A stretch of 48,092 nucleotides of DNA, taken from Desulfonatronum sp. (GTDB lineage Bacteria; Desulfobacterota; Desulfovibrionia; Desulfovibrionales; Desulfonatronaceae). Shown in pieces: positions 13,489 through 29,099 of the stretch (the first letter of the stretch is position 1; each line of letters begins with the position of its first letter). A model generated the notes under the pieces. It did no database searches. It was not told where the DNA came from and was given only the letters and a program-made list of their open reading frames with translations. Position numbers and translations under genes: made by a program. The stretch spans positions 1-48,092 of the forward strand of contig DSBL01000049.1 of the NCBI GenBank assembly GCA_011049455.1, in the 5' to 3' direction.

Positions 13489-14271
13489 TCATCCGGCCTG
13501 CTTTGATGTCCAGGGTGTTAGAAAACCATCGATTCCTCCCGATTCCTGGATATGGCGGATCAGGGAGCTGCCCATGACCACGCCGTCCACAGCGTCGTTG
13601 ATTTTGGTCAGCTGCGCGGGGGAGTGCAGGCCAAAGCCCAGGGCCAAGGGGATGGAGAAGATTTCCCGGGCTTTTCTCAATGCGTTTTGCAGCTCCATGG
13701 GCAGCGCGTCCCGCTCGCCCGTGACCCCCATGACGGACACGAAATAGACAAAGCCCTCGGAGCGTCGGGCGTACAAACGCAACCGCTCGGCTGAGGTATT
13801 CAGACCCACCAGTGAAATCAAGGCGATTCCGCATTCACGGAACAATTTTCGGATGTCCAGGGCTTCCTCCAGGGGCAGGTCGGCGATGATCAGGCCGTTG
13901 ACGCCAATCCGGGAGGCTGTCGCGGCCAGCCGCTCTAAACCGAACTGCAGGAATGGATTCATATAGCCCATGAGCACGATGCCGGCCCGAATGGAGGACC
14001 GACGCATGGCCAGTTCGTCCAAAATCCATTGCAGATTGACGCCTTGCTCCAGACAGCGCAGTGCAGCCTGTTCAACAATGGTGCCGTCGGCAACGGGATC
14101 GGAAAAGGGCACGCCGATTTCGATGATATCCGCCCCGGAGTGATCAAGGTCGGCGATGTGTCGCCAGAAGGCGTCCTTGTCCGGGTATCCGGCAGGCAAG
14201 TAGGGCATCAGGGCCTTGCGGCCGAGGGACAGGGCTTTATGAATTTTTTCGGTCAGGGTGTTGATGGTCAT
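13489..14271 (-). CDS. trpA: Tryptophan synthase alpha subunit
   Basis: The alpha subunit (260 residues) cleaves indole-3-glycerol phosphate and channels indole to TrpB. Visible signatures are LMPYLPAGYPD, DIIEIGVPFSDPVADGTIVE with the catalytic Glu in the EIGVPFSDP stretch, GIVLMGYMNP, NGLIIADLPLEEA with the second catalytic acid (Asp), and the phosphate loop ALGFGLHSPAQ. It is the last gene of the 12-gene aromatic operon and lies 149 bases after trpB. In that gap I see no gene or convincing hairpin. Its 3' end converges with the spermidine-synthase-like gene. Confidence 0.96.
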   Translation of the reverse strand: MTINTLTEKIHKALSLGRKALMPYLPAGYPDKDAFWRHIADLDHSGADIIEIGVPFSDPVADGTIVEQAALRCLEQGVNLQWILDELAMRRSSIRAGIVLMGYMNPFLQFGLERLAATASRIGVNGLIIADLPLEEALDIRKLFRECGIALISLVGLNTSAERLRLYARRSEGFVYFVSVMGVTGERDALPMELQNALRKAREIFSIPLALGFGLHSPAQLTKINDAVDGVVMGSSLIRHIQESGGIDGFLTPWTSKQAG

Positions 14272-14420
14272 TGTCTTCTCCGGATGTTTTGTTTTTGGAC
14301 AGAGTTAAGCAAAGGTGAACAGGTGCAGTTGTGGGCACGGTTCCCTTCTTGTAAACCTCCATGTACACGCTATAGAAGCCAGACATGTGGAAATCGCCCG
14401 AGTTCATTTTCTGCTGCTGA

Positions 14421-15593
14421 TCATCCTTTTCGCAACGCCTCGCGCACGATGCCCAAGTCCTTGTCACCGCGGCCGGACAGGCAGACCACCACGTCCGTGG
14501 AAACCGGCAGGGTTTGGGCCAGACTCAGGACGTGCGCCAAGGCATGGGAGCTTTCCAGGGCCGCCAGGATCCCTTCGGTCTTGGCCAGACGCAAGAACGC
14601 TTTCAGGGCCTGGCTGTCGGTGACGCTAACATATTTTGCCCGCCCTTGGGCCTGCAGATGCGCATGTTCCGGTCCGACTCCGGGATAGTCCAGGCCGGGC
14701 GCCAGGGAATGGGACGGCATGATCTGGCCGTCAGCGGTTTGCAGCAGTTTTGTCTTGCAGCCGTGCAGCACGCCGGGAGTGCCCTTGTTCAATGTGGCGG
14801 AATGGAAGCAATCCACGCTTCCTTCCCCGGCAGCCTCCACGCCCACCAGGGCGGTTTGCCTGTGAGTCACAAAGGCGTGGAACATGCCGATGGCGTTGGA
14901 GCCGCCCCCAACGCAGGCCACCACCTGTTCCGGCAGCTTGCCGGTACGGCTCTGGAACTGCTCCAAGGCTTCCCGGCCGATGATGGACTGCAACTCACGC
15001 ACCAACAACGGAAAGGGATGCGGGCCCACAGCCGAGCCCAGACAGTAGTGGGTGTCGGCCTGTTTTGCTATCCAGTGGCGCATCGCCGCGTTGATGGCGT
15101 CCTTGAGCGTCTGGCTGCCGGACTGCACGGGTCGGACCTGTGCGCCCAGCAGTTCCATGCGCTGTACATTATGCGCCTGTCTCACCACGTCCGTCGCGCC
15201 CATGTACACGATGCACTCCAGACCGAGCAGGGCCGCGGCCGTGGCCGTGGCCACGCCATGCTGCCCGGCGCCGGTTTCCGCCACCAGCCGGGTTTTGCCC
15301 ATGTGCTTGGCCAGCAGGGCCTGACCCACGGTGTTGTTGATCTTGTGTGCACCCGTATGCGCAAGGTCCTCACGCTTCAGCCACAGGCCGAAATCCAGTT
15401 CCTTGGAAAGATTGTCACAACGATACAAAGCCGTGGGCCTGCCCACATAGTGGCGCAGAAGATTCGTGAATTCCTCCTGAAAGGCTGCGCTGGTCATGAT
15501 CCGGTCCATGGCCTCCTCCAGTTCCAGCAGGGGCGGCATGAGCAGCTCCGGTGCGAAGCGTCCGCCAAAATCTCCGAAATATCCTTTTCTCAT
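14421..15593 (-). CDS. trpB: Tryptophan synthase beta subunit
   Basis: The PLP-dependent beta subunit (390 residues) condenses indole with serine. The PLP lysine lies in KREDLAHTGAHKINNTVGQALLA. GRPTALYRCDNLSKEL, ETGAGQHGVATATAAALLGLECIVYMGA, the glycine-rich CVGGGSNAIGMFHAF loop and the C-terminal CLSGRGDKDLG are all canonical. A strong ribosome binding site (AAGGAG, seven bases before the ATG) supports the start at 15593. It is separated from trpF by about 215 bases that carry a GATNNN hexamer tract, the longest repeat-bearing gap of the operon. Confidence 0.97.
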   Translation of the reverse strand: MRKGYFGDFGGRFAPELLMPPLLELEEAMDRIMTSAAFQEEFTNLLRHYVGRPTALYRCDNLSKELDFGLWLKREDLAHTGAHKINNTVGQALLAKHMGKTRLVAETGAGQHGVATATAAALLGLECIVYMGATDVVRQAHNVQRMELLGAQVRPVQSGSQTLKDAINAAMRHWIAKQADTHYCLGSAVGPHPFPLLVRELQSIIGREALEQFQSRTGKLPEQVVACVGGGSNAIGMFHAFVTHRQTALVGVEAAGEGSVDCFHSATLNKGTPGVLHGCKTKLLQTADGQIMPSHSLAPGLDYPGVGPEHAHLQAQGRAKYVSVTDSQALKAFLRLAKTEGILAALESSHALAHVLSLAQTLPVSTDVVVCLSGRGDKDLGIVREALRKG

Positions 15594-15663
15594 GAAATCT
15601 CCTTCTTGGTTGTGTTATGAAAACGATGCGGTGTCATTTTCAATTCAATGATTCTCTTGGCGT

Positions 15664-15755
15664 CAATATGGGGTCGGTATCGATACTTTTTGGATGCGTA
15701 GGGTCTGGCTTCGACCCCGATGCGGATACCGATACTGAAATCCGACGCCGACAAC
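15664..15755 (+). repeat. Degenerate GATNNN hexamer tract between trpF and trpB
   Basis: On the plus strand, GAY triplets recur every six bases (15713, 15719, 15725, 15731, then 15744 and 15750 after a one-base slip). The left part has the complementary pattern and the palindrome GTATCGATAC. GGGGTCG (15670-15676) and CGACCCC (15712-15718) form a 7-bp inverted repeat. No gene is recognised in 15594-15809. Confidence 0.5.
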
Positions 15756-15809
15756 AGTATGTTCCACGTCAACATTGCATTGTCGCATGAGAATTGGTGT
15801 TGCGGTGCT

Positions 15810-16421
15810 TCAGCCCTTCAGTTCTCGCAGTGCCTGCGTCAATGCTTCCCGGCTTTTTCGGCCCAAGGCGTCCTCTACGCTGGAATTGAGATCCACTCCA
15901 TCCGGCGTACAGCGCGACAGGGCGTCCCGGATATTTTCCGGCCCCAGGCCTCCGGCCAGAAACCAGGGCAGGGGAGATCGCAAGCCGGCCAGCCAACCAA
16001 AATCCAGGCTGCGGCCGTGTCCGCCGCCGCTGATCCCGGCGTCCAGCAGCACAGCCTGGCAAAAGGTCGCATCCGCCTCGATGTCCCGCTGCAGGTCCTC
16101 CAGCCGGGCATAACGTTGCGGCCAGAAGACCTTGACCACCCGCCTCGGCCCTACGGCACGGCAGAAGGCTTGGTCCTGCCCGCCGTGCAGCTGGGCCAGA
16201 TCCAGTCCGGCTTGGTCCATGATCTTGCACACCTGGTTCGCGCTCTGGCGCACGAACACCCCTACGCGCAAAGCCCGACCCCGGACAAAGTCAGCGACCT
16301 GGGGAACATCAACATTCCGCGGGCTGGCCGGGTGAAAGATGAACCCAATCCGGTCCACGCCCAACTCCTCGCACAAGATCACGTCTTCGGCCCTGGTCAG
16401 GCCGCAGACCTTGATCAGCAT
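15810..16421 (-). CDS. trpF: Phosphoribosylanthranilate isomerase
   Basis: TrpF catalyses the Amadori rearrangement of PRA to CdRP. The start was set at the ATG at 16421 because MLIKVCGLTRAEDV is the standard family N-terminus with the catalytic Cys in KVCGLT. The long upstream extension of the open frame looks non-coding. Further signatures are GVDRIGFIFHPASPRNV, LDLAQLHGGQD, VLLDAGISGGGHG carrying the general-acid Asp, FLAGGLGPENI and DGVDLNSSVE. The protein has 203 residues, the usual length. A CAGGAAA just before the ATG may serve as ribosome binding site. An intergenic stretch of 244 bases separates it from trpC. Confidence 0.95.
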   Translation of the reverse strand: MLIKVCGLTRAEDVILCEELGVDRIGFIFHPASPRNVDVPQVADFVRGRALRVGVFVRQSANQVCKIMDQAGLDLAQLHGGQDQAFCRAVGPRRVVKVFWPQRYARLEDLQRDIEADATFCQAVLLDAGISGGGHGRSLDFGWLAGLRSPLPWFLAGGLGPENIRDALSRCTPDGVDLNSSVEDALGRKSREALTQALRELKG

Positions 16422-16665
16422 TTTCCTGTTCTGCTCCACGTTCTTTGCTCCGCAATCGGCAACGACTCCGCACGTGTTCGATTGAGCAAGATGCCCGACC
16501 AGACGATACCCCTTAACACTGCAGCGAAACCTTCCAGTCATGATTGTCGCTGCGAGGTGTCGCATGGCGGCCGCGCCGACATGTTTGACAAGCGCTGCAT
16601 TGTCTGACCACGCAGGCGGCGAGGGAGTTTGCAACGCAAGGAAAATATGAAAGCGCGGCATGCCT
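16422..16665. other. Intergenic stretch between trpC and trpF
   Basis: The minus frame of trpF stays open through this 244-base stretch, but the encoded residues do not resemble TrpF or anything else I recognise. I see no hairpin with a T-run and no GATNNN tract. An internal promoter is possible but not evident. Confidence 0.4.
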
Positions 16666-17442
16666 TTACGCCTTCCGCATCTGCTTCAGCAAACCGGCCA
16701 AAACCGCGCCTGGATCTGGCGCCTGCATCAGCCGGGTGCCCATGAGCAGGCCGTCAAACCCCGCGTCGCGCATCCGGGCCATGTCCCTTGCTGTCTGCAA
16801 TCCGCTGGCGCTGATCCAGACCTCGTCCGCGGACTTGCGGCCGATCAGCTCCAGGGAAACGCCAAGGTCCGTGGACAGGGTGTCCAGATCTCTGTTGTTC
16901 ACCTGGATGATCCGCGCCCCAACGTGCTTGGCCCGGTCCAGGTCGGCCTGGTCAAAGATCTCCACCACCGCTTCCAGGCCGAATTCATCGCAGGCCGCAA
17001 GCATTGTGGCCAGCTCATGCGGTGTGAGCATCCGCGCGATGAGCAACACGGCCGAGGCCGGGGTTGCCGCGCTTTGGCGAACCTGCAATGGGTGCAGCAG
17101 AAAATCTTTACGCAGCAGGGGCAGGCCCGGTCCGGCCATGGCGTCCAAGTATTCCAGCCGCCCCTGGAAATAGGTTTGCTCGGTGAGCACGGACAAGGCC
17201 GCGGCTCCGGCCCGGGCATAGCCCGAGGCGGCCTGCTCCGGGAACCAGCCCGCGTTGATCAGTCCCTTGCTTGGGGAAGCCCGCTTGTATTCAGCGATCA
17301 CCGCGCCCGGGCTTTGTTCCAGAAGAGCCCGGCGCAGGGAGGGTCTGCAGACCTGCAGCGGTTCGGGCAGTGTCCAAACCGCTGCCATAGCCTGCAAGGC
17401 CCGAATTTCTGCCTGTTTGGCCTGGCGGAATTTTTCAAGCAT
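16666..17442 (-). CDS. trpC: Indole-3-glycerol phosphate synthase
   Basis: A TIM-barrel enzyme of 258 residues that closes CdRP to indole-3-glycerol phosphate with loss of CO2. Key motifs are VIAEYKRASPSKGLI with the catalytic Lys, ALSVLTEQTYFQG, LLRKDFLL with the second Lys, ASAVLLIARML, EAVVEIFDQADL, IIQVNNRDLDTL and the C-terminal GFDGLLMGTRLM phosphate loop. It is a monofunctional TrpC, not fused to TrpF as in E. coli. Its start overlaps the end of trpD by eight bases, implying coupling. Confidence 0.96.
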   Translation of the reverse strand: MLEKFRQAKQAEIRALQAMAAVWTLPEPLQVCRPSLRRALLEQSPGAVIAEYKRASPSKGLINAGWFPEQAASGYARAGAAALSVLTEQTYFQGRLEYLDAMAGPGLPLLRKDFLLHPLQVRQSAATPASAVLLIARMLTPHELATMLAACDEFGLEAVVEIFDQADLDRAKHVGARIIQVNNRDLDTLSTDLGVSLELIGRKSADEVWISASGLQTARDMARMRDAGFDGLLMGTRLMQAPDPGAVLAGLLKQMRKA

Positions 17443-18430
17443 ACAACACCCTGCTGCTGACGCCTTTTTTCAGGGCATCCCTGGCCATCTCGGCGCACTG
17501 GATCAGATTTATGTCTTTTTCCAGAAGGTAGAGGCAGGCCGCCAGATTCAAGGCTGTCATTTCAGCCACGGCCCGGCGGCCGCCCCCGGATAGAATGTCC
17601 TGCATCACGCCCACGGCATGGTCTTTGTCCCGGACGGTCACATCCTCGGGAGCATGCCGCGCAAAACCGAGCTTCTCCGGATTGATGGCCGTTTTCTCCA
17701 TGATGCCGTCCTTGACCAGATAGCAGCGAGCCGGGCCAAAAGTGGTCAGTTCGTCGAAGCCCCCGGCCCCGTGAACCACCAGGGCCCTTTCCACGCCGGT
17801 CAAGAGCAGGGCTTCGCCCATGATGAATAAATATTCAGGATGGCCTACGCCGATGAGTTGGTGGGTGGGACGGGCCGGGTTGAGCAAAGGTCCCATGAGG
17901 TTGAACAGGGTTCTGATGCCGAGTTCGCGGCGGACCGGCATGATGTGCTTGAAGGCCGGGTGATAGGCCGGGGCGAAGAGAAACACGAAATTGCGGCTCG
18001 CCAAGTTCTCGGCAACCTTCTCCGGCTCGATGTCCAAGGGGATGCCCAAGACCTCGAGCACGTCGGCGCTGCCACAGGACGAGGACACGGCCCGGTTGCC
18101 GTGCTTGACCACCTGATAGCCCATCTCGGCCAAAAACAGAGCCACGGCCGTGGAGCAGTTGAAGCTGTGGCTATTATCCCCTCCCGTGCCGCAGGTGTCG
18201 ATACGTGGTCCGGACAGTCCCGGGATTTGTCGGGCATGCTCCAATCCCGCCCGCACGCCCGCGGCCAGATCCGTGGAGTCCTCGCCTTTGACCCGCAGGC
18301 CCATGAGAAAGGCTCCGGCCTGGGAGGGGTCCAGTTGGCCCTCCAGCAAGGCGTTGAAAATCATGTCGGCTTGCACGTCGCTCAAAGTCTGCCTCTTGGC
18401 CAGGTGTTCCAAGATGTCGCTGATCTGCAT
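17435..18430 (-). CDS. trpD: Anthranilate phosphoribosyltransferase
   Basis: TrpD joins anthranilate and PRPP. The protein shows DTCGTGGDNSHSFNCSTAVALFLA (PRPP and Mg site), VKHGNRAVSSSCGSADVLEVLG, FLFAPAYHPAFKHIMPVRRELGIRT and FNLMGPLLNPARP, all typical. The open frame begins at 18448, but the ATG at 18430 has a textbook AAGGAG seven bases upstream and gives MQISDILEHLAKRQTL, matching family starts, so it was chosen. It is not fused to trpG. It begins 14 bases after the trpG stop and ends overlapping trpC. Confidence 0.96.
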   Translation of the reverse strand: MQISDILEHLAKRQTLSDVQADMIFNALLEGQLDPSQAGAFLMGLRVKGEDSTDLAAGVRAGLEHARQIPGLSGPRIDTCGTGGDNSHSFNCSTAVALFLAEMGYQVVKHGNRAVSSSCGSADVLEVLGIPLDIEPEKVAENLASRNFVFLFAPAYHPAFKHIMPVRRELGIRTLFNLMGPLLNPARPTHQLIGVGHPEYLFIMGEALLLTGVERALVVHGAGGFDELTTFGPARCYLVKDGIMEKTAINPEKLGFARHAPEDVTVRDKDHAVGVMQDILSGGGRRAVAEMTALNLAACLYLLEKDINLIQCAEMARDALKKGVSSRVLYA

Positions 18431-18444
18431 TTGTAAGCTCCTTC

Positions 18445-19035
18445 TCATGGTGTGGAAAACAATTTTTGGTGCATTTTAAGAAAATTGGCCAAAAGTTTTG
18501 GGCCGTCCGGGGTGAGCACGGATTCGGGATGAAACTGTACTCCCATCCAAGGGCGGTCCGTGTAGCGCAGGCCCATCACCTCGTCCTGCGCGGTCCAAGC
18601 CGTGCGCGTCAGCACACTTGACGCCTCTTGCGCAGCAACCAGCAAGGAGTGATAGCGGCCGCACTGCATGGGTCGAGGCAGACCTTCGAACAGACCGAAT
18701 CCTTCATGGTCCACGGCCGAGGTCTTGCCGTGCATGATCCGGGAAGCCACGTCCACCGAGGCCCCGGCAAAACGGCCCAGAATCTGATGTCCCAGGCAGA
18801 TGCCCAGTACCGGCACGCTGCTGGGCAACTTTTCCAGAAATTGCATGCACAATCCGGCGAATTCAGGCCGTCCCGGGCCGGGAGAGATGATCACGGCTTC
18901 CAAATTGTCGCCTCCCGCCAGATCCAACAGTTCGTGCCGGTCGTTGCGCAGCACTGTGGGGAACACTCCCAGGACCTGGAAGGCTTGGACCAGATTGAAG
19001 GTGAAAGAATCGTAATTATCGATAAGTAAAAACAT
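18445..19035 (-). CDS. trpG: Anthranilate synthase glutamine amidotransferase component
   Basis: A class I glutamine amidotransferase of 196 residues that supplies ammonia to TrpE. It has MFLLIDNYDSFTFNLVQ at the start, SPGPGRPEFAG, the nucleophile Cys80 in VLGICLGHQILG, and the His/Glu pair in VQFHPESVLT. The open frame extends to 19128, but only the ATG at 19035 gives a family-like N-terminus. It overlaps the end of trpE by 20 bases, so the two anthranilate synthase subunits are probably translationally coupled. It could also serve p-aminobenzoate synthesis, as in some bacteria, but the context argues for Trp. Confidence 0.95.
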   Translation of the reverse strand: MFLLIDNYDSFTFNLVQAFQVLGVFPTVLRNDRHELLDLAGGDNLEAVIISPGPGRPEFAGLCMQFLEKLPSSVPVLGICLGHQILGRFAGASVDVASRIMHGKTSAVDHEGFGLFEGLPRPMQCGRYHSLLVAAQEASSVLTRTAWTAQDEVMGLRYTDRPWMGVQFHPESVLTPDGPKLLANFLKMHQKLFSTP

Positions 19036-20440
19036 CACTGCCTCCCTGCTTGGTGAAGGCGTCCCTGAGGACCTTGGCCTTGTTGCGGCATTCGTTCCAT
19101 TCCTTGTCAGGTTCGGAATCCGCGACAATCCCGGCTCCGGCCTGGAAATGCACCTGGCCGTCGCGGACCCACAGGCTGCGAATGGTGATGCCCGTGTCCA
19201 GGTTCACCCGCTGCGGGCCGTCCGCCGCATTCAGGCCCAGCCAGCCGATGGCTCCGGCATAAGGTCCCCGAGGCAGGGGCTCGTGTCCGGCAATGATCTC
19301 CATGGCCCGAATCTTGGGCGCGCCGCTGACTGTTCCCGCGGGAAAGGTGGCCTGGAGCACGTCCAGGGCGTCCAGTCCCTCGGCCAATTGCGCCTGGACG
19401 TAGGAGGTCAGGTGCATGACATGGGAGAAGCGTTCCACCTGCATGAATTTATCGACTTTTACACTGCCGGGCGCGGCGATCCGGCCCAGGTCGTTGCGCC
19501 CCAAATCCACGAGCATCACGTGCTCGGCCCGCTCCTTGGGATCGGCCAGCAGTTCCCGGGCCAAAGCCCGGTCCTGCTCCTCGTTTTCTCCGCGCGGTCT
19601 GGTCCCGGCAATGGGCCGAGATTCCAGCAAACCGTCCTGGCAACGAACCATCAGTTCCGGTGATGACCCCAACAGAGTCAAACGAGGCAGGCGCATGAAA
19701 AACATATACGGCGAGGGATTGATCTGGCGCAGTCGGCGATAGAGCACGAAAGGCTCGCCGGAAAATGGGGCCTCGAAACGAGTGGAGAGCACGGTTTGGA
19801 TTGCTTCTCCAGTGCGGATCAATTCCTTGACGCGACCAACCTGTCTCATGAAATCTCCAGCTTGGGGCGTTTTTCTGATCTGACCCACCACCGGGGGATC
19901 GTCAGGCGAGGGCTTTTGCAGTTCCTCCACGCCGGTCCGGTCCGAGTCCAGGCTCAGGACGCAGCAGCGATGGTGCAGATGATCATACAAAGCCACTCGG
20001 GCCGGCAGCACCAGGCAGGCCTCGGTCTGGGTGGCGGGCAGACTGTTCACCAGCTTGGGCTCGAACAAGCCGGCCATGCCGTAGCCGAAATATCCGTAAA
20101 GGCCCCTGGTCAGGGCGGGAAGATCGGCAAACTCGTCCTTTGCCGTGATCCGCAAGGAGGACAGCACCCGGCGCAGGGCCGGAACGAATTCCTCGCTGTC
20201 CAGTTTTTCCAGGTTCTTCAAGCGCGCATCCTGGGTCTGAACCTCCATGCGTCCGTCCCGGCAATTCAATCGTAGCCGAAAGTCCCAGGCGATCAGACTG
20301 TAGCGGCCCAGACGGCCGTCCACTTCAGCGCTTTCCAGGAGGATGCCCTGGCGTTTGCCCACCAGCCCGAGAAACAGGCTGATGGGCGTCTGCACGTCCG
20401 CGGCCAGCCATTGGCCGTGCTGGGTCAGGTCGATGTGCAT
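19016..20440 (-). CDS. trpE: Anthranilate synthase component I
   Basis: A chorismate-using enzyme of about 474 residues and the first committed step to Trp. The LLES motif (residues 34-37, GILLESAEVDGR) is the tryptophan feedback site of TrpE, so the enzyme is expected to be allosterically inhibited. The catalytic domain shows PSPYMFFMRLP, SPELMVRCQDGLLESRPIAGTRPRG, ELLADPKERAEHVMLVDLGRNDLGRI and the C-terminal FPAGTVSGAPKIRAMEII. The ATG at 20440 is preceded by AAGGAG at ideal spacing and was preferred to an upstream in-frame start at 20563, which falls in the terminator. It begins 153 bases after tyrA, in a gap that holds an intrinsic terminator. Confidence 0.96.
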   Translation of the reverse strand: MHIDLTQHGQWLAADVQTPISLFLGLVGKRQGILLESAEVDGRLGRYSLIAWDFRLRLNCRDGRMEVQTQDARLKNLEKLDSEEFVPALRRVLSSLRITAKDEFADLPALTRGLYGYFGYGMAGLFEPKLVNSLPATQTEACLVLPARVALYDHLHHRCCVLSLDSDRTGVEELQKPSPDDPPVVGQIRKTPQAGDFMRQVGRVKELIRTGEAIQTVLSTRFEAPFSGEPFVLYRRLRQINPSPYMFFMRLPRLTLLGSSPELMVRCQDGLLESRPIAGTRPRGENEEQDRALARELLADPKERAEHVMLVDLGRNDLGRIAAPGSVKVDKFMQVERFSHVMHLTSYVQAQLAEGLDALDVLQATFPAGTVSGAPKIRAMEIIAGHEPLPRGPYAGAIGWLGLNAADGPQRVNLDTGITIRSLWVRDGQVHFQAGAGIVADSEPDKEWNECRNKAKVLRDAFTKQGGSDVFTYR

Positions 20441-20531
20441 GGTGTGCTCCTTGAGAATGGTTTCATGATTTCCGAAGTATTGAGGTTTATCCTTCCCATC
20501 CGGCGCATTTTTTTCATTTTTCTGAAGGCAC

Positions 20532-20560
20532 AAAAAAACCGCCTTCCCGGGGGAAAGCGG
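20532..20560 (-). terminator. Intrinsic terminator/attenuator between tyrA and trpE
   Basis: Read on the minus strand, CCGCTTTCCC and GGGAAGGCGG form a GC-rich stem (one G-U pair, short loop) followed at once by seven T (20538-20532). It lies 33 bases after the tyrA stop and 91 bases before the trpE start, inside the operon. The seven-T run makes it a strong candidate for factor-independent termination. Confidence 0.85.
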
Positions 20561-20641
20561 CATCGATATTGTGGTTGCACTGGTGCGTTCACATCATGGG
20601 CCGGTTGTCCCCCTGATCTGTTTGTCGCGCCACCACCAGCC
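20539..20641 (-). promoter_or_regulatory. Candidate trp attenuator using the tyrA C-terminal Trp codons
   Basis: Three consecutive TGG codons (20638-20630) encode Trp near the end of tyrA, eleven codons before its TGA (20594-20596). Downstream comes the terminator at 20532-20560. A competing helix can be drawn: GGGGGA in the tyrA tail pairs with TCCCCC in the terminator stem-loop, and GGC near the stop pairs with GCC. A ribosome stalled at the Trp codons would leave GGGGGA free; one at the stop codon would cover it. The Trp codons and the hairpin are seen; the mechanism is inferred. Confidence 0.55.
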
Positions 20642-21385
20642 GGCGCGCTGGGCCAGTACGTCCATGTCGCCGCCCGCGGCCAGATTGAGATGGGAGCGGA
20701 ACAGACGTACCGCGTCCTGGCTGTAGGGATTGGCCTCGAACAGATCCGTGAACATGGTCGCGTCTTCGGTAAGCATTTTTCTGGCCGCTTCCAGTCGCCG
20801 GGAAAACGAGGGGGTCAGGAAGGATTCCAAACTTTCGTCCTCGGCCAGTGCGGAGAGATAGGCGCAGGTGGTCACGAAATTAAGTCCCTGCACTGCGGCC
20901 ATGGCCCGGTCATGGGTTTCGGCAGTGGACAAAAACGGCGCAAAACCCAGTTTGGTCAGGAGGTCCAGAATTGCGTTCAGGGCCTGTTCCCCGCGGCCCG
21001 GGGTCACGGCCACCCGCGCGACCTGATTCGGCTCGGGCCCAAACAAAGGGTGGGTCCCCACCACGGAACCAGCGTGGTATCTGAGCATTACGGCCATGGG
21101 CAAAACCTTCACGGAACAGATGTCCATGAGGACGGTTTCAGGCGAAAGGTGCGCGGCGCAGCGGGCCAGAACATCCTCCAGAACAGGGGCCGGCACGGCC
21201 AGCAGCACCAGGTCCTGGTTCGGCAAAACCTCGGCCAGACGCTGTTTTTCAAGCGGTTGATCCAGGCCGGCCACCTGCCGCCCGGTCGCTTGCAGCCGGG
21301 AGACAAACAAGCCGCCCATGCGGCCGCGTGAGCCGATCACGCAGCAGCGTCGCAAGGTGGGGATGGTTTTTAGTGGATCATCCAT
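20594..21385 (-). CDS. tyrA: Prephenate dehydrogenase
   Basis: A 263-residue NAD(P)-dependent dehydrogenase that converts prephenate to 4-hydroxyphenylpyruvate in Tyr synthesis. The Rossmann motif is degenerate (CCVIGSRGRMGGLFVSRL). LVLLAVPAPVLEDVL, SVKVLPMAVM and GTHPLFGPE are typical TyrA. No chorismate mutase or ACT domain is fused; the mutase resides on PheA. The C-terminus AGWWWRDKQIRGTTGP is unusual in holding three Trp in a row close to the stop, recalling trp leader peptides. The trpE terminator follows, so this tail may double as a regulatory leader. The upstream gap to aroA carries a GATNNN hexamer tract. Confidence 0.92.
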   Translation of the reverse strand: MDDPLKTIPTLRRCCVIGSRGRMGGLFVSRLQATGRQVAGLDQPLEKQRLAEVLPNQDLVLLAVPAPVLEDVLARCAAHLSPETVLMDICSVKVLPMAVMLRYHAGSVVGTHPLFGPEPNQVARVAVTPGRGEQALNAILDLLTKLGFAPFLSTAETHDRAMAAVQGLNFVTTCAYLSALAEDESLESFLTPSFSRRLEAARKMLTEDATMFTDLFEANPYSQDAVRLFRSHLNLAAGGDMDVLAQRAGWWWRDKQIRGTTGP

Positions 21386-21451
21386 AATGTCGCTGGCCGC
21401 ATGGTATTATTATTTGCAGTCCACATGGCGCCTTCTGTTGGTTGTTGTCGG

Positions 21452-21525
21452 GATCGCTTTCGATGGGATATTGTGATTCATTCGATTCCGGCTCTGATTT
21501 CGATTTTGATAGCGATTGCGATTTG
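21452..21525 (+). repeat. Degenerate GATNNN hexamer tract between aroA and tyrA
   Basis: On the plus strand GAT recurs every six bases at 21484, 21496, 21502, 21508, 21514 and 21520, with looser GAT copies from 21452. The tract lies wholly in the gap 21386-21544, with no recognisable gene. It resembles the tracts at 15713 and 23003 in unit and orientation. Confidence 0.6.
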
Positions 21526-21544
21526 CTGGAGATATTGCCCGGCT

Positions 21545-22885
21545 TCACGCTAGTGCATTCTTCAACCTCTCCCAGCGCGCCCAGAATTCCGGGAACGACT
21601 TGGCCACGCACCCGGGCTGGTCCAGTTCCACGCCGATTCCGCCCAACTCCAAAAGCGACAGACTCATGGCCAGACGGTGGTCGCCATAGGTCGTGAAGCT
21701 CAAACGCTTTCCCCTGGGTAGCGGCGCGGGCTTAATGACCAGCCCGTCGTCCAGGCTCGTGATTATTGCACCGATGCGCCCCAATTCCGTGGCCACGGCT
21801 TCCAGGCGGTCGCTTTCTTTGATCCGCAAATGGCCCACGTTGCGGATGGTGGTCGTCCCCCTGGCCTGGACCGCCACCGCGGCCACCGTAGGCACCAGGT
21901 CGGGGCAGTGGCCCATGTCCAGATTTACACTGCGCAGATGTCCCCCGGAGATCATGATCGTGTCTTTCTGCCATTGCACTGTTGCGCCCATGCTCTGAAG
22001 GATGCCCGCTATGGCCTGGTCGCCTTGCAACGAATCCCGGCGCAGGCCGGACACAGCCACGGGGATCCTGCCCAATGCCCCGGCGGCCAGAAAATACGAA
22101 GCGTTGCTCCAGTCCCCTTCCACTATCGCAGTCCGGGGTTGATAGGCGCCTGGCCGGACAACGATTTGCAGCCTGCCCGGGACAACCTCGCCCGGAGCGC
22201 GCCAGGACACGTCACCCCAGCCGGTTTCGTCCAAAATTTGAACCCGAAAAGCGATGCCGAAATCCTCCATGACCTGTAGGGTCAGGCCCACGTATGGCCA
22301 AGAGACCACCTTGCGGCCGGTAATGGTTACGATCAGGGGCGTGCGAGCCTGGGGCGCGGCCAAAAGCAGACCGGACAGATACTGGCTGGATTCATCCAGA
22401 TCAATGGTCGTCTCTCCGCCGGACAATCCGGCAGCCTGCAACAGCAGGGGAGGGCAGCCGGTCTGCTCGAGATAGGAGATCCTGGCGCCCTGTCCGTGCA
22501 GCGCGTTTACCAGACTGGCTATGGGCCGGGAGTGCATCTTTCCCCGCCCCTGGATCCGGAAGAGGCCTTGTCCCGAGGCCAGGATCGCCGTGAGCAGGCG
22601 GCAGGTGGTGCCGGACTCGCCCACGTCCATGAGCATGGGGTCCGCGCTCGCCGGGCCGCCCTGCGGGCCATTAGGCATGCCGGACACCGCGTATGCACCG
22701 GGGCCATCACGGCGGATCACGGCCGAGGCCCGGCCCAGGATATCTATGGTCCGTTCCAAATCCTCGCTTTCCAAAATATTGGTCAGCCGAGACGTGCCCC
22801 GGGCCAGGGCCGCGGCAATCATCGCGCGGTGGGACAAAGACTTGGAGGCCGGAGCCTGGATGGTGACTGCGGATGCAATGGGCAT
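21545..22885 (-). CDS. aroA: 3-phosphoshikimate 1-carboxyvinyltransferase (EPSP synthase)
   Basis: EPSP synthase (446 residues) joins PEP to shikimate 3-phosphate. The N-terminal substrate site APASKSLSHRAMIAAALARG, MDVGESGTTCRLLTAILA, the SSQYLSGLLLAAP region, GDWSNASYFLAAGALG and the C-terminal LRIKESDRLEAVATEL plus TYGDHRLAMSLSLL are all present, so the enzyme should be active. The first ATG at 22885 gives a canonical start, with a weak purine-rich stretch upstream. It lies between pheA and tyrA, each gap being about 150 bases and carrying a hexamer tract. Confidence 0.96.
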   Translation of the reverse strand: MPIASAVTIQAPASKSLSHRAMIAAALARGTSRLTNILESEDLERTIDILGRASAVIRRDGPGAYAVSGMPNGPQGGPASADPMLMDVGESGTTCRLLTAILASGQGLFRIQGRGKMHSRPIASLVNALHGQGARISYLEQTGCPPLLLQAAGLSGGETTIDLDESSQYLSGLLLAAPQARTPLIVTITGRKVVSWPYVGLTLQVMEDFGIAFRVQILDETGWGDVSWRAPGEVVPGRLQIVVRPGAYQPRTAIVEGDWSNASYFLAAGALGRIPVAVSGLRRDSLQGDQAIAGILQSMGATVQWQKDTIMISGGHLRSVNLDMGHCPDLVPTVAAVAVQARGTTTIRNVGHLRIKESDRLEAVATELGRIGAIITSLDDGLVIKPAPLPRGKRLSFTTYGDHRLAMSLSLLELGGIGVELDQPGCVAKSFPEFWARWERLKNALA

Positions 22886-23002
22886 GATTCTCAGCTCTCG
22901 CGGGATGCAATCATTGCTTGGATGATTTCAGTTGGCCTGGCTGTTGTTTCGGGTTCGGCATCAGGACCGTTTTTGCTTCATCAAGGCCTGTGCTGGGGTA
23001 CC

Positions 23003-23032
23003 GATACCGATTTCTATTTCGACCTCGATTCA
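23003..23032 (+). repeat. Degenerate GATNNN hexamer tract at the end of pheA
   Basis: On the plus strand the units GATACC, GATTTC, TATTTC, GACCTC and GATTCA follow in strict six-base register from 23003, running into the pheA stop codon (23030-23032). The rest of the gap to aroA (22886-23002) shows nothing recognisable. Confidence 0.5.
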
Positions 23033-24187
23033 TGGCCGATGTCCGTCTCCATCGGCAAAAGGATCCCGGGATACATCCAGGTAGGGCCCCGAGGGATAGC
23101 TGCCCAGGATGCGCAGGGTATGGCAGTTGTTGCGCAGATCGGTCAGCACCCGTTGGTATTCCTGGCGGCTGACGTCGCACTCCAGGTCCACGAAAAACAC
23201 ATATTTCCACTTTTCTCCGCGCAACGGGCGGGATTCAAGTTTTTTCAGGTTGATGCCTTCCCGGGCCAGCAGATTCAGCACTTGAGCCAGAGCACCGGGT
23301 TTGTCCGGCAGGGTCAAGAGCATGGAGGTCTTGTCCCGGTTGCCTGCGTCAGCGGGTTGCGCGCCGATGATCAAAAAGCGGGTCCAGTTGTCCGGTTGGT
23401 CTTCGATGCGCCGGGCCAGGACGGTCAGTCCGAGCATGTGGGCCACGCGCACGTGGCCGATGGCCGCTGCGTTCAGTTCCTCCAAAACCCGGCGGGCAGC
23501 CGCGGCCGTGCTTTCCGCGGGAATGACTCTGGCTGCGGGCAGGTTCGCCCGCAGCCAGGACGAACACTGATCCAGGGCCTGGGGATGAGAGTAGACCCGC
23601 TTAATGTCGGCGATCTGTCCGTTCACGGCCAGCAGGGCGTGGCTGATCTTGCAATAGATTTCCGCTTGTACGTGGACCTCGAACTGCAGGAACAGGTCCA
23701 GGCTTTGGCCCACGGTGCCCTGCAGTGAATTTTCCAGGGGGATCACCCCGAGTTCGGCTTCCTGGCTTGCCACGGCGGCAAAGACCTCGTGCAGGCTGTT
23801 TTTCGGCTGAAAATTTCCACTCTGCCCCAGATACTCCAATCCTGCAAAATGGGAAAATGTACCCTCGGGACCGAGATAAACAATGGTTTGCGGCCGCTGC
23901 AGACGGCGCGAGGAGGAGAGAATCTCGCGATAAATATTGCGAAGATGATCTTCGGGCAGGGGGCCTTGATTGGCTTCAGCCAAACGGGCCAGGACTTCCT
24001 TTTCCCGAAAAGGTTTGAAAACCATGTCCTGCTGATTTTGCTTCAGCCGCCCGACTTCCAGGCTCAGGCCGGCACGGCGGTTTAGGAGAGCCAGCAATTT
24101 CTGGTCAGTGGCGTCGATGTCCTCACGGATTTTTGAAAGCTGTTTTTTGTTTTCCTGAGTTGGATCGCGCTGCGGTAGGGTGCTCAT
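23030..24187 (-). CDS. pheA: Bifunctional chorismate mutase / prephenate dehydratase
   Basis: This P-protein of 385 residues makes prephenate and then phenylpyruvate. Domains in order are: AroQ chorismate mutase (residues ~15-100, IREDIDATDQKLLALLNRRAGL); prephenate dehydratase (~105-285, YLGPEGTFSHFAG, GVIPLENSLQGTVGQSLDLF); and an ACT domain (~300-375, DKPGALAQVLNLLAREGINLKK followed by LESRP), which in the family binds Phe for feedback inhibition. The start overlaps the stop of DHQ synthase II in ATGA (24184-24187), implying coupling. The 3' end runs into a hexamer tract. Confidence 0.95.
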   Translation of the reverse strand: MSTLPQRDPTQENKKQLSKIREDIDATDQKLLALLNRRAGLSLEVGRLKQNQQDMVFKPFREKEVLARLAEANQGPLPEDHLRNIYREILSSSRRLQRPQTIVYLGPEGTFSHFAGLEYLGQSGNFQPKNSLHEVFAAVASQEAELGVIPLENSLQGTVGQSLDLFLQFEVHVQAEIYCKISHALLAVNGQIADIKRVYSHPQALDQCSSWLRANLPAARVIPAESTAAAARRVLEELNAAAIGHVRVAHMLGLTVLARRIEDQPDNWTRFLIIGAQPADAGNRDKTSMLLTLPDKPGALAQVLNLLAREGINLKKLESRPLRGEKWKYVFFVDLECDVSRQEYQRVLTDLRNNCHTLRILGSYPSGPYLDVSRDPFADGDGHRP

Positions 24188-25155
24188 GTCTCGCTAATCT
24201 CCTCGCTGATGGCCATGCCGAAATGCCGTCCGGCAGTATCCAGACGACAGAGCACTTGGTCACCGGGAGCCAGGGCGACCACGCTCACGGGGCTGCCGTC
24301 AGGACGCACCAGGCGGATGGTTTCCGCGTTCTGCAGGAAAATGGTTCCGCGTTTTTCTTTGCAAGCTGCTGTGATCAAGACCAGGGGTCTGATTTCCACC
24401 TTGCTTCGGCCGACCACGACCAGGGAGGCTTGACCCTGGGCATCCACGATTAAAACCTCCCTGCCGGCCTGGATTTCGCCGAGGTAGGAGGTGCGGTTGC
24501 CGGGCAGCAGGGCATAGGCATGCACGGCGCCGGCATTGATCCGGAAGGGCCGGGCCGCAACATAGGCGTTTTCCTCGGTTTCCGCGTGCACCAGGAAGGT
24601 GAAGGAGCTGGAATTGCCCACGAGCATGCCCTGACCGGTTTTAAGCAGGGAGCAGGTGTCCACGCAGACCCGGTGGCCAAGACCCACGGGCGTTATCTCC
24701 TCGATGATCGCCGTGTCCAGGTCCAGACGGCCTTCGGAGAGCTTCAGCGCGGCCACGATGGACCTCAGCTCTACCGCGGCCTCGGGCAGGACCACCACGA
24801 AGTCCACGCCGCGTTCAAGGATGCCCGCAGCCAGCCGGGCCTGTTCCAGGGAGGAGACCTCCACACCCAAACCCTGGGCCTGGGCCAGGATGTTCTCCAC
24901 CGGGATGATCTCCCAGCCCCGGGTCAGCGCGACGGTTTTTCCGGCGCGCAGGCTGTGCACGGCTTCTTCTTCGTCCGCCTTAGACTGCAGAGTGATGGTT
25001 GTGAGCTCATCCTCGGCCAGGACTCGCACGCGGCCAAGGGACGCGATGTCCTTGATCCGGTCCGGAGACGAGATCAGGACGTCCACCCCGGATTCCAGGG
25101 CCAGGGTGACCAGATGCTTGTCAAAGGGCACGGATTTCAACCAGACTTGGGTCAT
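24184..25155 (-). CDS. 3-dehydroquinate synthase II (archaeal type)
   Basis: A 323-residue protein of the DHQ synthase II family (MJ1249 type), unrelated to classical AroB. In the archaeal route it oxidatively deaminates and cyclises ADH to 3-dehydroquinate with NAD. Family stretches include KSVPFDKHLVTLALESGVD, GHRVCVDTCSLLKTGQGMLVGNSSSFTFLVHAE, RPFRINAGAVHAYALLPGNRTSYLGEI and the C-terminal LAPGDQVLCRLDTAGRHFGM. It follows ADH synthase after only 12 bases and overlaps pheA. With ADH synthase it replaces DAHP synthase plus AroB, as known for Desulfovibrio-type bacteria. Confidence 0.92.
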   Translation of the reverse strand: MTQVWLKSVPFDKHLVTLALESGVDVLISSPDRIKDIASLGRVRVLAEDELTTITLQSKADEEEAVHSLRAGKTVALTRGWEIIPVENILAQAQGLGVEVSSLEQARLAAGILERGVDFVVVLPEAAVELRSIVAALKLSEGRLDLDTAIIEEITPVGLGHRVCVDTCSLLKTGQGMLVGNSSSFTFLVHAETEENAYVAARPFRINAGAVHAYALLPGNRTSYLGEIQAGREVLIVDAQGQASLVVVGRSKVEIRPLVLITAACKEKRGTIFLQNAETIRLVRPDGSPVSVVALAPGDQVLCRLDTAGRHFGMAISEEISET

Positions 25156-25167
25156 GACGGATTCCTT

Positions 25168-25971
25168 TTATTGAAGTAATTCCATGGCCTGGGAAACATC
25201 CCAGTCATCATGCACAATGCCATGCAGGGCCTGGACCAGGCGCGAAGGCTGATCCGCCTGGAAAATGTTTCGGCCGATGGACAGTCCCGCACCGCCGGCC
25301 TGCAGACTGTCGTAAACCATGACCAGCAGGTCCAGGGCGCTCTCCAGCTTGGGGCCGCCGGCAATGACCACGGGCACGCAGCATCCGTCCACGACCGGGC
25401 GGAAGGTTTCCACACTCCCGGTATAGGGCACCTTGACCACGTCCGCTCCCAGTTCAACGCCCACTCGGGCGCAATGGGCGATCACGTCCGGATCGTATTC
25501 ATTCTTGATTTTCGGGCCACGGGCATAAACCATGGCCAGCACGGGCATGCCCCAGTCCATAGCCGTGGTGGTCATTTGGCCCATCTGCTCCAGCATGTGC
25601 CGTTCGGTTTCGTCGCCCAGGTTGACGTGCAGGCTGACCGCGTCCGCTCCCAGTTTGATGGCGTCCTCCACCGTGCCTACCAGGGTTTTGGCATTGGGAA
25701 AAGGGGACAGGGACGTGCTGGCGGAGAGATGCACGATCAAGCCGATGTCCGCGCCCTTGCCGCGATGGGAGCAGCGCACCAGCCCTTTGTGCAGGATGAT
25801 GGCGTTGGCACCGCCCTCGGCCACGTCGTTGATGGTCGATCGCATATCCACCAGCCCGGAGATAGGCCCGACGCTTACCCCGTGGTCCATGGGCACGATG
25901 ATGGTTCGCCCGGTATTGCGGTTGAAAATCCTCTCCAGTCGTACTGCCTTGCCCAAGTGCATGTATTGCAT
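25168..25971 (-). CDS. 2-amino-3,7-dideoxy-D-threo-hept-6-ulosonate (ADH) synthase
   Basis: A class I aldolase-like TIM barrel of about 267 residues, of the MJ0400 type. It condenses a 6-deoxy-5-ketofructose phosphate fragment with aspartate semialdehyde at the start of the alternative shikimate route. Motifs are [43 protein letters not shown], the Schiff-base Lys in [12 protein letters not shown], and [11 protein letters not shown]. It is the first enzyme gene of the operon. The GGGGAGGA upstream sits about seven bases before the ATG at 25971; ATGs at 25977 and 25962 are alternatives. The open frame extends to 26151, but that part overlaps the terminator and is leader RNA. A lone fructose-bisphosphate aldolase role is less likely given the DHQ synthase II neighbour. 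Confidence 0.9.
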
Positions 25972-26027
25972 GGCCATTCCTCCCCTTTGCCGCTCTGAGA
26001 AGCCTAGTGCGCGCCGAACATTGCCAC

Positions 26028-26064
26028 AAAAAAAGGGCCGCCGGCGTATCGCCTGCGGCCCTTT
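26028..26064 (-). terminator. Intrinsic terminator/attenuator in the aromatic operon leader
   Basis: On the minus strand AAAGGGCCGC pairs with GCGGCCCTTT. Inside it, after one mismatch, GGCG pairs with CGCC around an ATA loop, and the helix runs into seven T (26034-26028). It lies 33 bases after the stop of an aromatic-rich leader peptide and about 56 bases before the ADH synthase start, so it attenuates the operon rather than ending it. Confidence 0.9.
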
Positions 26065-26123
26065 GAGTGCGGTTTTTTGATGTTCTATTGCGTTGGTTAC
26101 ACCGCTTCCCCTTGACCACAGGC
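26051..26123 (-). promoter_or_regulatory. Candidate antiterminator of the aromatic operon attenuator
   Basis: In the transcript, GCCTGTGGTC (26123-26114, inside the last third of the leader ORF) can pair with GGCCGCAGGC (26060-26051, the 5' arm of the terminator): ten pairs, two of them G-U. The two structures are mutually exclusive, as in classical attenuation. The pairing is computed by eye; its stability is not measured. Confidence 0.5.
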
Positions 26124-26195
26124 CACGTTGCGCCAAAAATAAAAAAAGCAAAAATACAGGCTGGAACTATGGAAGGTGGTCAGCGCGGGTTGCAT
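26097..26195 (-). CDS. Leader peptide rich in Phe, Tyr and Trp (aromatic attenuator)
   Basis: A 32-codon ORF from ATG (26195) to TAA (26097-26099) lies just upstream of the terminator at 26028-26064. Its centre reads [12 protein letters not shown] (residues 13-23). Residues 14-21 hold four Phe, two Tyr and one Trp among eight codons, far above chance and directly matching the end products of the operon that follows. In known attenuators such runs make the ribosome stall when the charged tRNAs are scarce. The ATG lacks a clear ribosome binding site; an in-frame TTG twelve bases upstream (26207) is an alternative start. The ORF is too short for standard gene calling. The function is inferred from position and composition. 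Confidence 0.75.
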
Positions 26196-26204
26196 GGGCA
26201 GTGT

Positions 26205-26233
26205 CAATAAGTGAGCGTATCGGAGTTTGTCAA
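26205..26233 (-). promoter_or_regulatory. Candidate promoter of the aromatic operon
   Basis: On the minus strand a perfect TTGACA (26233-26228) is followed after 18 bases by TATTGA (26209-26204), a weak -10. A second TTGACA lies at 26207-26202. The transcript would begin almost at the leader ATG, so the leader may be translated from a very short 5' end, or the true promoter may be further upstream. Confidence 0.35.
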
Positions 26234-26256
26234 GGGGTTTGTGTTTTTTTTCTTCA

Positions 26257-27465
26257 TCAAGATGCGACTCCCATAACCACGTAGACCGGATCGCTGGTAT
26301 CGGTTTCATTGATGTGCGGATCATTCCCGGGCCGCCACCAGTTGCGGATGCTTACGGTATGCAAGTCCTGCAGCGCCGGCAGCTCCCTGAAACACTCCAG
26401 CACCAGCCCAAGACGCTCGAACTCGTGCAGGTCCACCCACTGCCAAACCGCCTTGTCCGGAAACCAGCGGTTGGAAAAGCCGATCAAGAGTGTGCCGCCG
26501 GGGCGCAGCGCCCGGATGCACTGGGCCAGCACGGCCCTTGGATCGGTCAGATATTCGATGGACAGGCTGCAGACCACGTTGTCAAAGCTCTTGTCCGCAA
26601 AGGGCAGCTCGGGGTTGTCGTTCAGATCGTGGATGACCCGTCGGGCAAGCAAGGGGTTGGCCTCAAGCTCTTCACGGTTCAGCCCCAGCCCCGTAACGTC
26701 CAGCCCGCGATCTTCAGGTAAATGGGAATGGACGTTGCTCATCAGGTCCAACACCCTGGCGCCGGGTTTGAGGACAGATGCATAAATCTCCTGCAGGAAG
26801 GCCGCGGCCCGGGAATCCACATGGCCAATGATCCGGGGCGACGCATAAAACAGGGCGTCATCAGACTCGTCATCGCGGCGCAGGCCGTTCAGGGACCCGA
26901 ACTGCGTGGGCCGTCCGCCATGACGGGCCTGCATGCCCGGTCCAGTATCCGCCAGCTCTTCCATCCAGCTGGCCAGACGACCTCCTGTCTCCGATGTCTT
27001 GTCCGCCATGTCCAGGACAGTGGCCCGAAGTTTCAGCTCCTGGCCCGCCAACGGATGATTCAAATCAACTGTCATGGTCTGCTCGTCCATGTCGATGACT
27101 CGTCCTGGACGAGCATCCTGGGGGTGTATGCCAATAATGTTGCCCAGCATTCCCCTGGGGTAGAAGCGACCTTGCCGCAAGGGGATTTTTCGAGCGCTGA
27201 TCACGCGGCGGTTGAATTGTGTTCGCGGCACGCGATAAATCAGCTTTTGATCATACGCCGGGATGGCCTCGCCTGGTTGATATTCCAAGTAAAACTCATC
27301 TCCGGGGCTTTTTCCCAACAAGGATTGCTGCATGCGAGGTGGAAAAATATCCCGCCACACGTTGACCCGCCTGGCCAGGTATCGTTCCTGATGCCGGGCC
27401 TCTCTGCTCTGCCATTCCAATTCCAACACCAAAGACGCAAGACTTTGTTCATGAATAACAGACAC
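26257..27465 (-). CDS. FKBP-like domain fused to a SAM-dependent methyltransferase
   Basis: A two-part protein of 402 residues. The N-terminal half ends in a stretch typical of SlyD-type FKBP prolyl isomerases: GNIIGIHPQDARPGRVIDMD then MTVDLNHPLAGQELKLRATVLDM (about residues 110-155). The C-terminal half (~215-390) is a class I methyltransferase with VLDLMSNVHSHLPEDRG, FDNVVCSLSIEYLTDPRAVL and ALRPGGTLLIGFSNRWFP. Its motif I lacks the usual GxGxG, which is odd. A GTG start is supported by AAGGAG six bases upstream. It sits upstream of the aromatic operon on the same strand, so readthrough into the leader is possible. The substrate is unknown. Confidence 0.75.
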   Translation of the reverse strand: MSVIHEQSLASLVLELEWQSREARHQERYLARRVNVWRDIFPPRMQQSLLGKSPGDEFYLEYQPGEAIPAYDQKLIYRVPRTQFNRRVISARKIPLRQGRFYPRGMLGNIIGIHPQDARPGRVIDMDEQTMTVDLNHPLAGQELKLRATVLDMADKTSETGGRLASWMEELADTGPGMQARHGGRPTQFGSLNGLRRDDESDDALFYASPRIIGHVDSRAAAFLQEIYASVLKPGARVLDLMSNVHSHLPEDRGLDVTGLGLNREELEANPLLARRVIHDLNDNPELPFADKSFDNVVCSLSIEYLTDPRAVLAQCIRALRPGGTLLIGFSNRWFPDKAVWQWVDLHEFERLGLVLECFRELPALQDLHTVSIRNWWRPGNDPHINETDTSDPVYVVMGVAS

Positions 27466-27761
27466 TTACTCCTTCTTTGCTCACCCGTGAATTGGGTTCA
27501 AAGGTTGTCCAAGTTCTCTACATGACGTCAAAAATCCGTCCTGCATTGTCGCCGTTGCACATAAACTGCCCGCAAGAAATCACTTGCCGCTGGGCAAATC
27601 ACCAAACACCATAATGATAGGATTATTCTCAGCACAGGCAAGAGCCAGTGCGTTGAAGACGGCTTGCCGCTATGATGTCCATGCCTTGCATCTCTGAACA
27701 ATTTCTGGGACCATACATCCACAAGCAACACATTCATCAGCATTAAAACGGAGATAGTTTC
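27466..27761. other. Divergent intergenic region
   Basis: This 296-base gap separates the FKBP-methyltransferase and LysM genes, so promoters for both must lie here. I see no strong sigma-70 pair, hairpin with T-run, tRNA or repeat. AT-rich sequence around 27600-27640 is the likeliest promoter zone. Confidence 0.3.
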
Positions 27762-28454
27762 ATGGACAAAAAAAGTTGGCTGCAAAAGCTAGAGGCTATG
27801 GAACAGGAGCAACAGGAAACCACTCAGCCTGAATCGGATAACAGCATCCCGCGTGTTTTTCTGGAAGGCCGGGGGAAGTTCTTGATTTTGGGCGGCATCG
27901 GGGTGGTGGTTTTGGTTCTTTTGGTGGTCATTTTTTCCTCAGGCAAGGACACGGTTTCGGAAAGACAGCTTCAGGATATTCTGGCCAGGCTTGATGTGTT
28001 GGAGTCCAGGCTGGTGGGTCTGGAGAACCAGGAAGGCGGGCGGCAGCAGGCGTTGGTGAGGATGCAGGGGGACTTCAGCATCCTGACCATGCGTGTAGAC
28101 AAGCTTTCCCGGGAGATGAAGGAACAGTTCGCCGATGTCGCGGCAAAAAAGGAACAGCCCTCCTCAGCAACGGCGGCCCCAAAGCCCGCCGCTCAGCAAC
28201 AACCTCAACAGGCCGCGCCACCCGCAGCTCCGAAGCCTGCAGCGGGTACTTCACCGACCCAGTCAAAACCCCAGGCAGCAACGCCGGTCAAACCAGCTGC
28301 GTCAAAACCGGTCCTGCACGAGGTCCGGGCCGGGGAAACCCTTTATCGGATCAGCCGCACTTATGGCGTTACAGTGGATGAAATCAGGCAACTGAACAAA
28401 ATCGGTACCGACGACCTGATTCATCCGGGGCAGCTGCTGACCATCAAAAAGTAA
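27762..28454 (+). CDS. Membrane-anchored LysM-domain protein
   Basis: A protein of 230 residues with a clear order of parts: a short cytoplasmic N-terminus, one transmembrane helix (residues ~45-62, LILGGIGVVVLVLLVVIF), a coiled-coil-like region (~66-125), a Pro/Ala/Gln-rich linker (~130-183), and one C-terminal LysM repeat (HEVRAGETLYRISRTYGVTVDEIRQLNKI ending LLTIKK). LysM binds peptidoglycan glycan chains, so the protein probably tethers the inner membrane to the wall. It starts after a purine-rich CGGAGA site. The flavin reductase gene follows after 29 bases. No catalytic domain is visible. Confidence 0.82.
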   Translation: MDKKSWLQKLEAMEQEQQETTQPESDNSIPRVFLEGRGKFLILGGIGVVVLVLLVVIFSSGKDTVSERQLQDILARLDVLESRLVGLENQEGGRQQALVRMQGDFSILTMRVDKLSREMKEQFADVAAKKEQPSSATAAPKPAAQQQPQQAAPPAAPKPAAGTSPTQSKPQAATPVKPAASKPVLHEVRAGETLYRISRTYGVTVDEIRQLNKIGTDDLIHPGQLLTIKK

Positions 28455-28483
28455 CCCGAAACCCCTTTGCAAGGAAGGTGACA

Positions 28484-29095: not shown

Positions 29096-29099
29096 CCAG

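Follow-up and report, generated by a model that had tools for sequence, protein, structure and literature searches.

The junction between tyrA and trpE in a stretch of Desulfonatronum sp. DNA (48,092 nucleotides, hereafter the window; closest named relative of its source, Desulfonatronaceae bacterium UBA663) is, judged from its sequence and from that of its relatives across the class, very probably a ribosome-mediated Trp transcription attenuator in which the end of tyrA itself serves as leader ORF (probability about 0.88), an arrangement that seems to recur in many sulfate-reducing bacteria.

According to the proposed mechanism, RNA polymerase would enter from a promoter ahead of the aromatic supraoperon, and the ribosome finishing tyrA would trail behind it. 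When charged tRNA-Trp is low, this ribosome would wait on residues W250-W252 and its footprint would stop short of a strand beginning about 16 nt further on. The exposed strand would pair with the emerging 5' arm of the terminator; the terminator would be blocked and trpEGDCFBA transcribed. With ample Trp, the ribosome would reach the stop codon and mask the strand, the terminator would form and transcription would stop after tyrA. When any one of the three Trp codons occupies its A site, a ribosome leaves the bases about 4–10 nt and more past the last Trp free, and a ribosome at a stop codon covers the preceding dozen or so nucleotides. From these known footprints we infer the exposure of the antiterminator strand upon stalling; the stalling itself and the response to Trp are likewise inferred.

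Anatomy and pairing of the junction in the window

The supraoperon lies on the minus strand and consists of genes for a DeoC/LacD-type aldolase and 3-dehydroquinate synthase II, pheA with chorismate mutase, aroA, tyrA, trpE and the other trp genes (Table 1). TyrA is an enzyme of 263 residues ending in AGWWWRDKQIRGTTGP. The initial annotation had described three TGG codons eleven codons before the tyrA stop, an intrinsic terminator with seven T behind the gene, and a trpE with its own ribosome binding site, and we found each of these in place. Eleven sense codons separate TGGTGGTGG from the TGA; the hairpin GCCGCTTTCCCCCGGGAAGGCGGT (20561-20538), which lies 32 nt past the stop, leads into the seven T; and AAGGAG precedes the trpE ATG. 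Among the terminator-like sites of positions 14000-30000, this terminator ranks first (10 pairs, 6 of them G-C). A longer trpE ORF from 20563 was set aside as a spurious upstream extension. Another TGGTGGTGG is present elsewhere in the window, at 36955-36947 of the minus strand.

Table 1. Positions of the tyrA-trpE element, the trp genes and the head leader in the window
Feature	Position	Strand	Remarks
Head leader peptide (YFCFFYFW)	26097-26195	minus	head of supraoperon, first aromatic-wide attenuator
Head attenuator terminator AAAGGGCCGCAGGCGATACGCCGGCGGCCCTTT	26032-26064	minus	-25.8 kcal/mol
tyrA (prephenate dehydrogenase)	20594-21385	minus	Pfam PDH_N, E 1.7e-13; 3' end is the putative leader ORF of the attenuator
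Trp codon run TGGTGGTGG (W250-W252)	20630-20638	minus	proposed stall site
Putative antiterminator strand GGGGGACAACCGGCC	20599-20613	minus	within tyrA, 16 nt past last Trp codon
tyrA stop codon (TGA)	20594-20596	minus	
Intrinsic terminator GCCGCTTTCCCCCGGGAAGGCGG + T7 (putative attenuator)	20532-20561	minus	top-ranked site in terminator scan
trpE	19016-20443	minus	first gene under the proposed control; Chorismate_bind 2.5e-89, Anth_synt_I_N 8.8e-25; start taken at 20443
trpG, trpD, trpC, trpF, trpB, trpA	13489-19041	minus	rest of the operon under the proposed control; ORFs by eye
trpG	18445-19041	minus	ORF by eye
trpD	17435-18448	minus	ORF by eye
trpC	16666-17442	minus	ORF by eye
trpF	15810-16661	minus	ORF by eye
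trpB	14421-15593	minus	ORF by eye
trpA	13489-14271	minus	ORF by eye

The GGGGGA of the tyrA tail (from 20613) is complementary to the TCCCCC of the terminator, and the full duplex of GGGGGACAACCGGCC with GCCGCTTTCCCCC has a computed energy of -19.6 kcal/mol. The minimum-energy fold of the isolated junction RNA is the terminator (z about -1.1 to -1.5 relative to shuffles), a result that does not decide on an attenuator. For a nascent RNA whose 3' end lies in the terminator loop, the computed fold is the antiterminator instead (-23.6 kcal/mol). Using the same rule on 448 kb of the same genome, we observed that 9 of 35 terminators, the tyrA-trpE one included, have upstream of them a complement of equal or greater strength, and pairing energy inside one genome was therefore rejected as evidence for not being distinctive. 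As the pairing in a single genome is ordinary and the isolated fold is the terminator, the case rests on comparison.

Conservation of the terminator, spacing and pairing across the class

TyrA matches were obtained in 308 of the 348 genomes of the class, and 179 tyrA loci were read. trpE is located downstream of tyrA at 128 of them. A U-tailed terminator between the two genes was detected by scan in 93 of these linked loci, and addition of L087, L106 and L124 by eye brings the number to 96; the initial annotation had proposed looking for it in relatives having the same gene order. The other 32 linked loci have that gene order without the terminator. The element is present in 25 genera and scattered over most TyrA branches; the best tree needs at least 15 state changes. 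This distribution fits an old element that may have been lost many times, on a tree that cannot separate gain from loss.

Several loci depart from the common layout. At L046, L050, L067, L080, L103, L109 and L119, the end of tyrA and the start of trpE overlap by between a few and 20 nt, and there is no attenuator; these genera often have AWW, TWW or RWW in place of the full Trp run. At L106 and L124 the attenuator is present and trpE starts 528 and 861 nt past tyrA, respectively. L063 and L065 (genomes G016 and G006) belong to an attenuator-bearing genus, that of genome G011 described below; trpE was not found there at the threshold used, and their TyrA tails have drifted to LWWQETRGKKEKK and LWWQETRGEEEKK. 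Neither the WWW run nor a trpE beside tyrA was found in any of 19 relatives outside the class.

The spacing of the element is set by the Trp codons. In 91 of 95 loci, the best complement of the terminator 5' arm begins 13–22 nt past the final Trp codon, compared to 21% in shuffled regions. The spread of its start is small when measured from the Trp run (SD 2.6 nt) and larger from the stop (8.3 nt) or the terminator (8.7 nt). The tyrA stop itself floats between 6 and 42 nt past the last Trp codon; therefore, the strand starts within tyrA in 71 loci and at or past the stop in 24 (for placement relative to the stop, see TAGGGACGCGGC with GCCGCGTCCC in L053 and GGGGTGCGGC with GCCGCACCCC in L154). 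At the genus level, the positions of strand and stop have a correlation of 0.02. A distance that is fixed to the Trp codons and independent of the stop cannot be explained by a constraint on the protein sequence, but can be explained by a ribosome waiting on the Trp codons.

The pairing, moreover, co-varies. The strand pairs with the arm of its own locus at -22.8 kcal/mol, compared to -13.7 kcal/mol when shuffled. With one row per genus, the own arm is better than the arms of other genera by 5.1 kcal/mol (permutation, worst p 0.001), and a helix of at least 8 pairs forms with the own arm in 72 of 95 loci, compared to 37% for arms taken from other genera. Strand and arm read, for example, GAAGTGC/GCACTTC (L017), GGGACGCGGC/GCCGCGTCCC (L053), GAGGGAGCGCG/CGCGCTCCCTC (L040), AAAGGGAAGGA/TCCTTCCCTTT (L088), GGGGTGCGGC/GCCGCACCCC (L154) and CCCGGGGGACA/TGTCCTCCGGG (L113). 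Taken singly the tails are weak, as synonymous-codon shuffling gave p <0.05 in only 15 of 53; over 25 genera, position and pairing are, in this comparison of sequences, far beyond chance. Thus the pairing of GGGGGA with TCCCCC proposed in the initial annotation holds, its position being conserved and its bases changing together with the terminator arm between genera, and the comparison over the class supports the proposal made there of a trp attenuator that has the tail of an enzyme gene as its leader.

The expectation that WWW occurs only where a terminator and trpE follow was borne out in part. The first Trp of the run is present in 95 of the 96 attenuator loci, and in 11 of 32 linked loci without attenuator and 26 of 48 unlinked ones. 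On the other hand, WWW is found in about half of the unlinked tyrA genes, W251 is invariant in 68 of 68 aligned TyrA proteins of the class, and the tree-corrected association of WWW with the attenuator is not significant; WWW alone was therefore rejected as a diagnostic of the attenuator. The third position of the run can be F, Y or L in TyrA without attenuator. From the invariant W251, the WWW of unlinked tyrA and the non-significant association, we read the run as an old structural Trp that would have been widened, that is, as an elaborated enzyme residue and not a regulatory invention. In the AlphaFold model of TyrA, most of the chain has a pLDDT of about 97 and the last helix with the Trp run is confident (94 for residues 241-250), and past the run the value falls to 66 and then 42. 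The model thus suggests that this tail is probably disordered, which probably frees the codons after WWW for a role as RNA.

Alternative explanations and leaders away from tyrA

An intergenic terminator as strong as this one usually marks the end of an operon. It might merely close the aro/phe/tyr operon, with a separate promoter downstream of it serving trpE and the G-rich tail being there by coincidence of composition; the unexceptional pairing strength in this genome, and the 200–370 nt between terminator and trpE in some relatives, are what such an arrangement would give. However, the T-run is followed by the trpE start within 30 nt in 20 of 93 loci (e.g. CAGCGAACCGGAGGACACATG in L095) and within 45 nt in 49 of 93, and this stretch would have to hold a promoter as well as a ribosome binding site. 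Where the gap is 30 nt or less there is no room for a promoter, which suggests that transcription of the trp genes has to pass the terminator and that the terminator must consequently be regulated. A scan of the window showed no promoter-like site at the junction, and the conserved strand position and genus-specific pairing are hard to reconcile with coincidence; we consider a separate trpE promoter very improbable. It is still harder to credit that the needs of the enzyme are what maintains WWW and the tail, the complementarity being a by-product of the amino acids. The invariant W251, the WWW of unlinked tyrA and the WF with which the domain closes in some relatives outside the class (L227, L236) do speak for a role in the enzyme. 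The strand, nevertheless, crosses the stop in 24 loci with its distance to the Trp codons kept, the tail is modeled with low confidence, the first Trp varies freely in the absence of the attenuator, and in one genome the tail is retained without the enzyme (L185, described below).

It is also conceivable, if improbable, that the switch is real and reads general translation or ribosome-polymerase coupling at the tyrA end, as in rph-pyrE, where an enzyme gene end sets readthrough of an intercistronic attenuator (PMC2784333), rather than Trp specifically. In D. hydrothermalis it was hydrostatic pressure, not Trp, that shifted trpEGD (PMC4162548). A sensor of general coupling would not account for a distance that is kept from the Trp codons but not from the stop, nor for the free leaders at unlinked trpE genes, which retain both WWW and the distance.

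These free leaders are ordinary WWW leaders found where trpE sits away from tyrA. Across 27 genomes in which trpE is not behind tyrA, 24 trpE genes are preceded by a terminator and by an ORF containing tandem Trp codons, as in MNVFSNTISNSFKGWWWRIQLRGGDVRA (L191) and MLNAFSLTFSAYRWWWRVVDVKGGVRPA (L189). Their antiterminator strand starts at a median of +16, and 19 of the 24 fall within 13–22 nt; the computed position is far off this rule for L184, L202 and L207, the last due to a wrong ORF having been picked. The shared geometry indicates that the same switch is built in this way with either a free peptide or the tyrA end. The leaders at L187-L209 have the same Trp run, +16 spacing and terminator type as the tyrA element, and differ from it in being separate short ORFs having their own start and not the end of an enzyme. 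Some of these free leaders have tails, for example RGGDVRA, that are similar to those of TyrA, for example SGGDV.

One genome (G011) has a form of the element that lacks the enzyme. At L185 (1187-1390), a TyrA remnant of 68 codons stands directly before trpE, ends in WWWPRQHQPGEPAS and has the attenuator behind it; it is 63% identical to the intact tyrA elsewhere in the same genome (L022). Upstream of the remnant is a Phe/Tyr/Trp leader (YFFWCFYC) with a terminator. The aromatic genes between this head leader and the tyrA end are absent from this place in what is a fragmented assembly, and the tail and the switch are kept. We see about even odds that leader peptides and enzyme tails are evolutionarily interchangeable, an enzyme gene having given rise by its 3' end to a trp leader at least once in the class. 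In other genera, the free WWW leaders (WWWRIQLRGGDVRA) may have arisen earlier along this route, or, conversely, tyrA may have captured a trpL.

Two proposed tiers of control and relation to known attenuators

The leader at the head of the supraoperon (26195-26032) is an ordinary aromatic attenuator and the first of two tiers. In the two-tier arrangement, this leader, rich in Phe, Tyr and Trp codons, would sense all the aromatics at the entrance, and the tyrA end would sense Trp alone in the middle of the operon. Song et al. 2005 (PMC1173090, Table 7) listed a putative attenuator, from the Merino database, ahead of aroA' in Desulfovibrio vulgaris; it belongs to the same supraoperon and lies at its head, corresponding to the YFCFFYFW leader here, and the tyrA-trpE junction is not mentioned in that paper. 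In RNA-seq of D. hydrothermalis at 10 versus 0.1 MPa, trpE, trpG and trpD were down by about 2.6–2.7 log2, and the genes from the aldolase to tyrA had no listed significant value (PMC4162548). These expression data concern the genes and not the element, and suggest that the trp part can be set apart.

The E. coli trp leader, the type case of trpL-type attenuation, has tandem Trp codons. The tyrA element has these as well (the Trp run is present in nearly all of its 96 loci), and in both there is a U-tailed terminator whose 5' arm pairs with a strand behind the codons, and trpE comes next. The U-tailed terminator ahead of the first structural gene and the competing antiterminator strand, recognized by its fixed +16 nt and its co-varying pairing, are thus those of a trp-type attenuator. 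In contrast, the leader is not a short dedicated peptide near the promoter; it is formed by the final twelve or so codons of the gene for a 263-residue enzyme within a long operon, in which tyrA is the fifth gene. For the 1:2 protector hairpin of the E. coli type, which frees the terminator once the ribosome is released, a search across the genera gave genus-specific partners only and none shared. The Rfam model RF00513 (Trp_leader) matched none of 61 genomes, nor the window, at its gathering cut-off of 41 bits. Below the cut-off there were matches at some junctions (such as L121, 29.7 bits, E 0.028), and in G032 the junction was the only match in the genome.

The rph-pyrE attenuator senses UTP via polymerase pausing, and has neither regulatory codons nor amino-acid specificity. 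Among known systems it comes closest to having an enzyme gene for a leader: in E. coli, the end of the enzyme gene is the leader, and translation up to its stop sets readthrough into the next gene (PMC2784333, citing Bonekamp 1984). The tyrA element differs from it in having regulatory Trp codons. In the open-access literature searched, we found no description of the tyrA-trpE element, nor of any amino-acid attenuator that uses the terminal part of an enzyme gene as its leader. Provisionally, therefore, ribosome-mediated trp attenuation is the known part of this system and the C-terminus of an enzyme as the leader is the new one.

Attenuator screens look for short ORFs ahead of operons, and a leader internal to an enzyme gene would escape them. 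Here, one stretch of sequence would be selected as the end of an enzyme, a stall site and an RNA switch together, and Trp would get its own valve inside an operon common to Phe and Tyr. The tyrA end and its remnant may also make visible a route for the origin of leader peptides.
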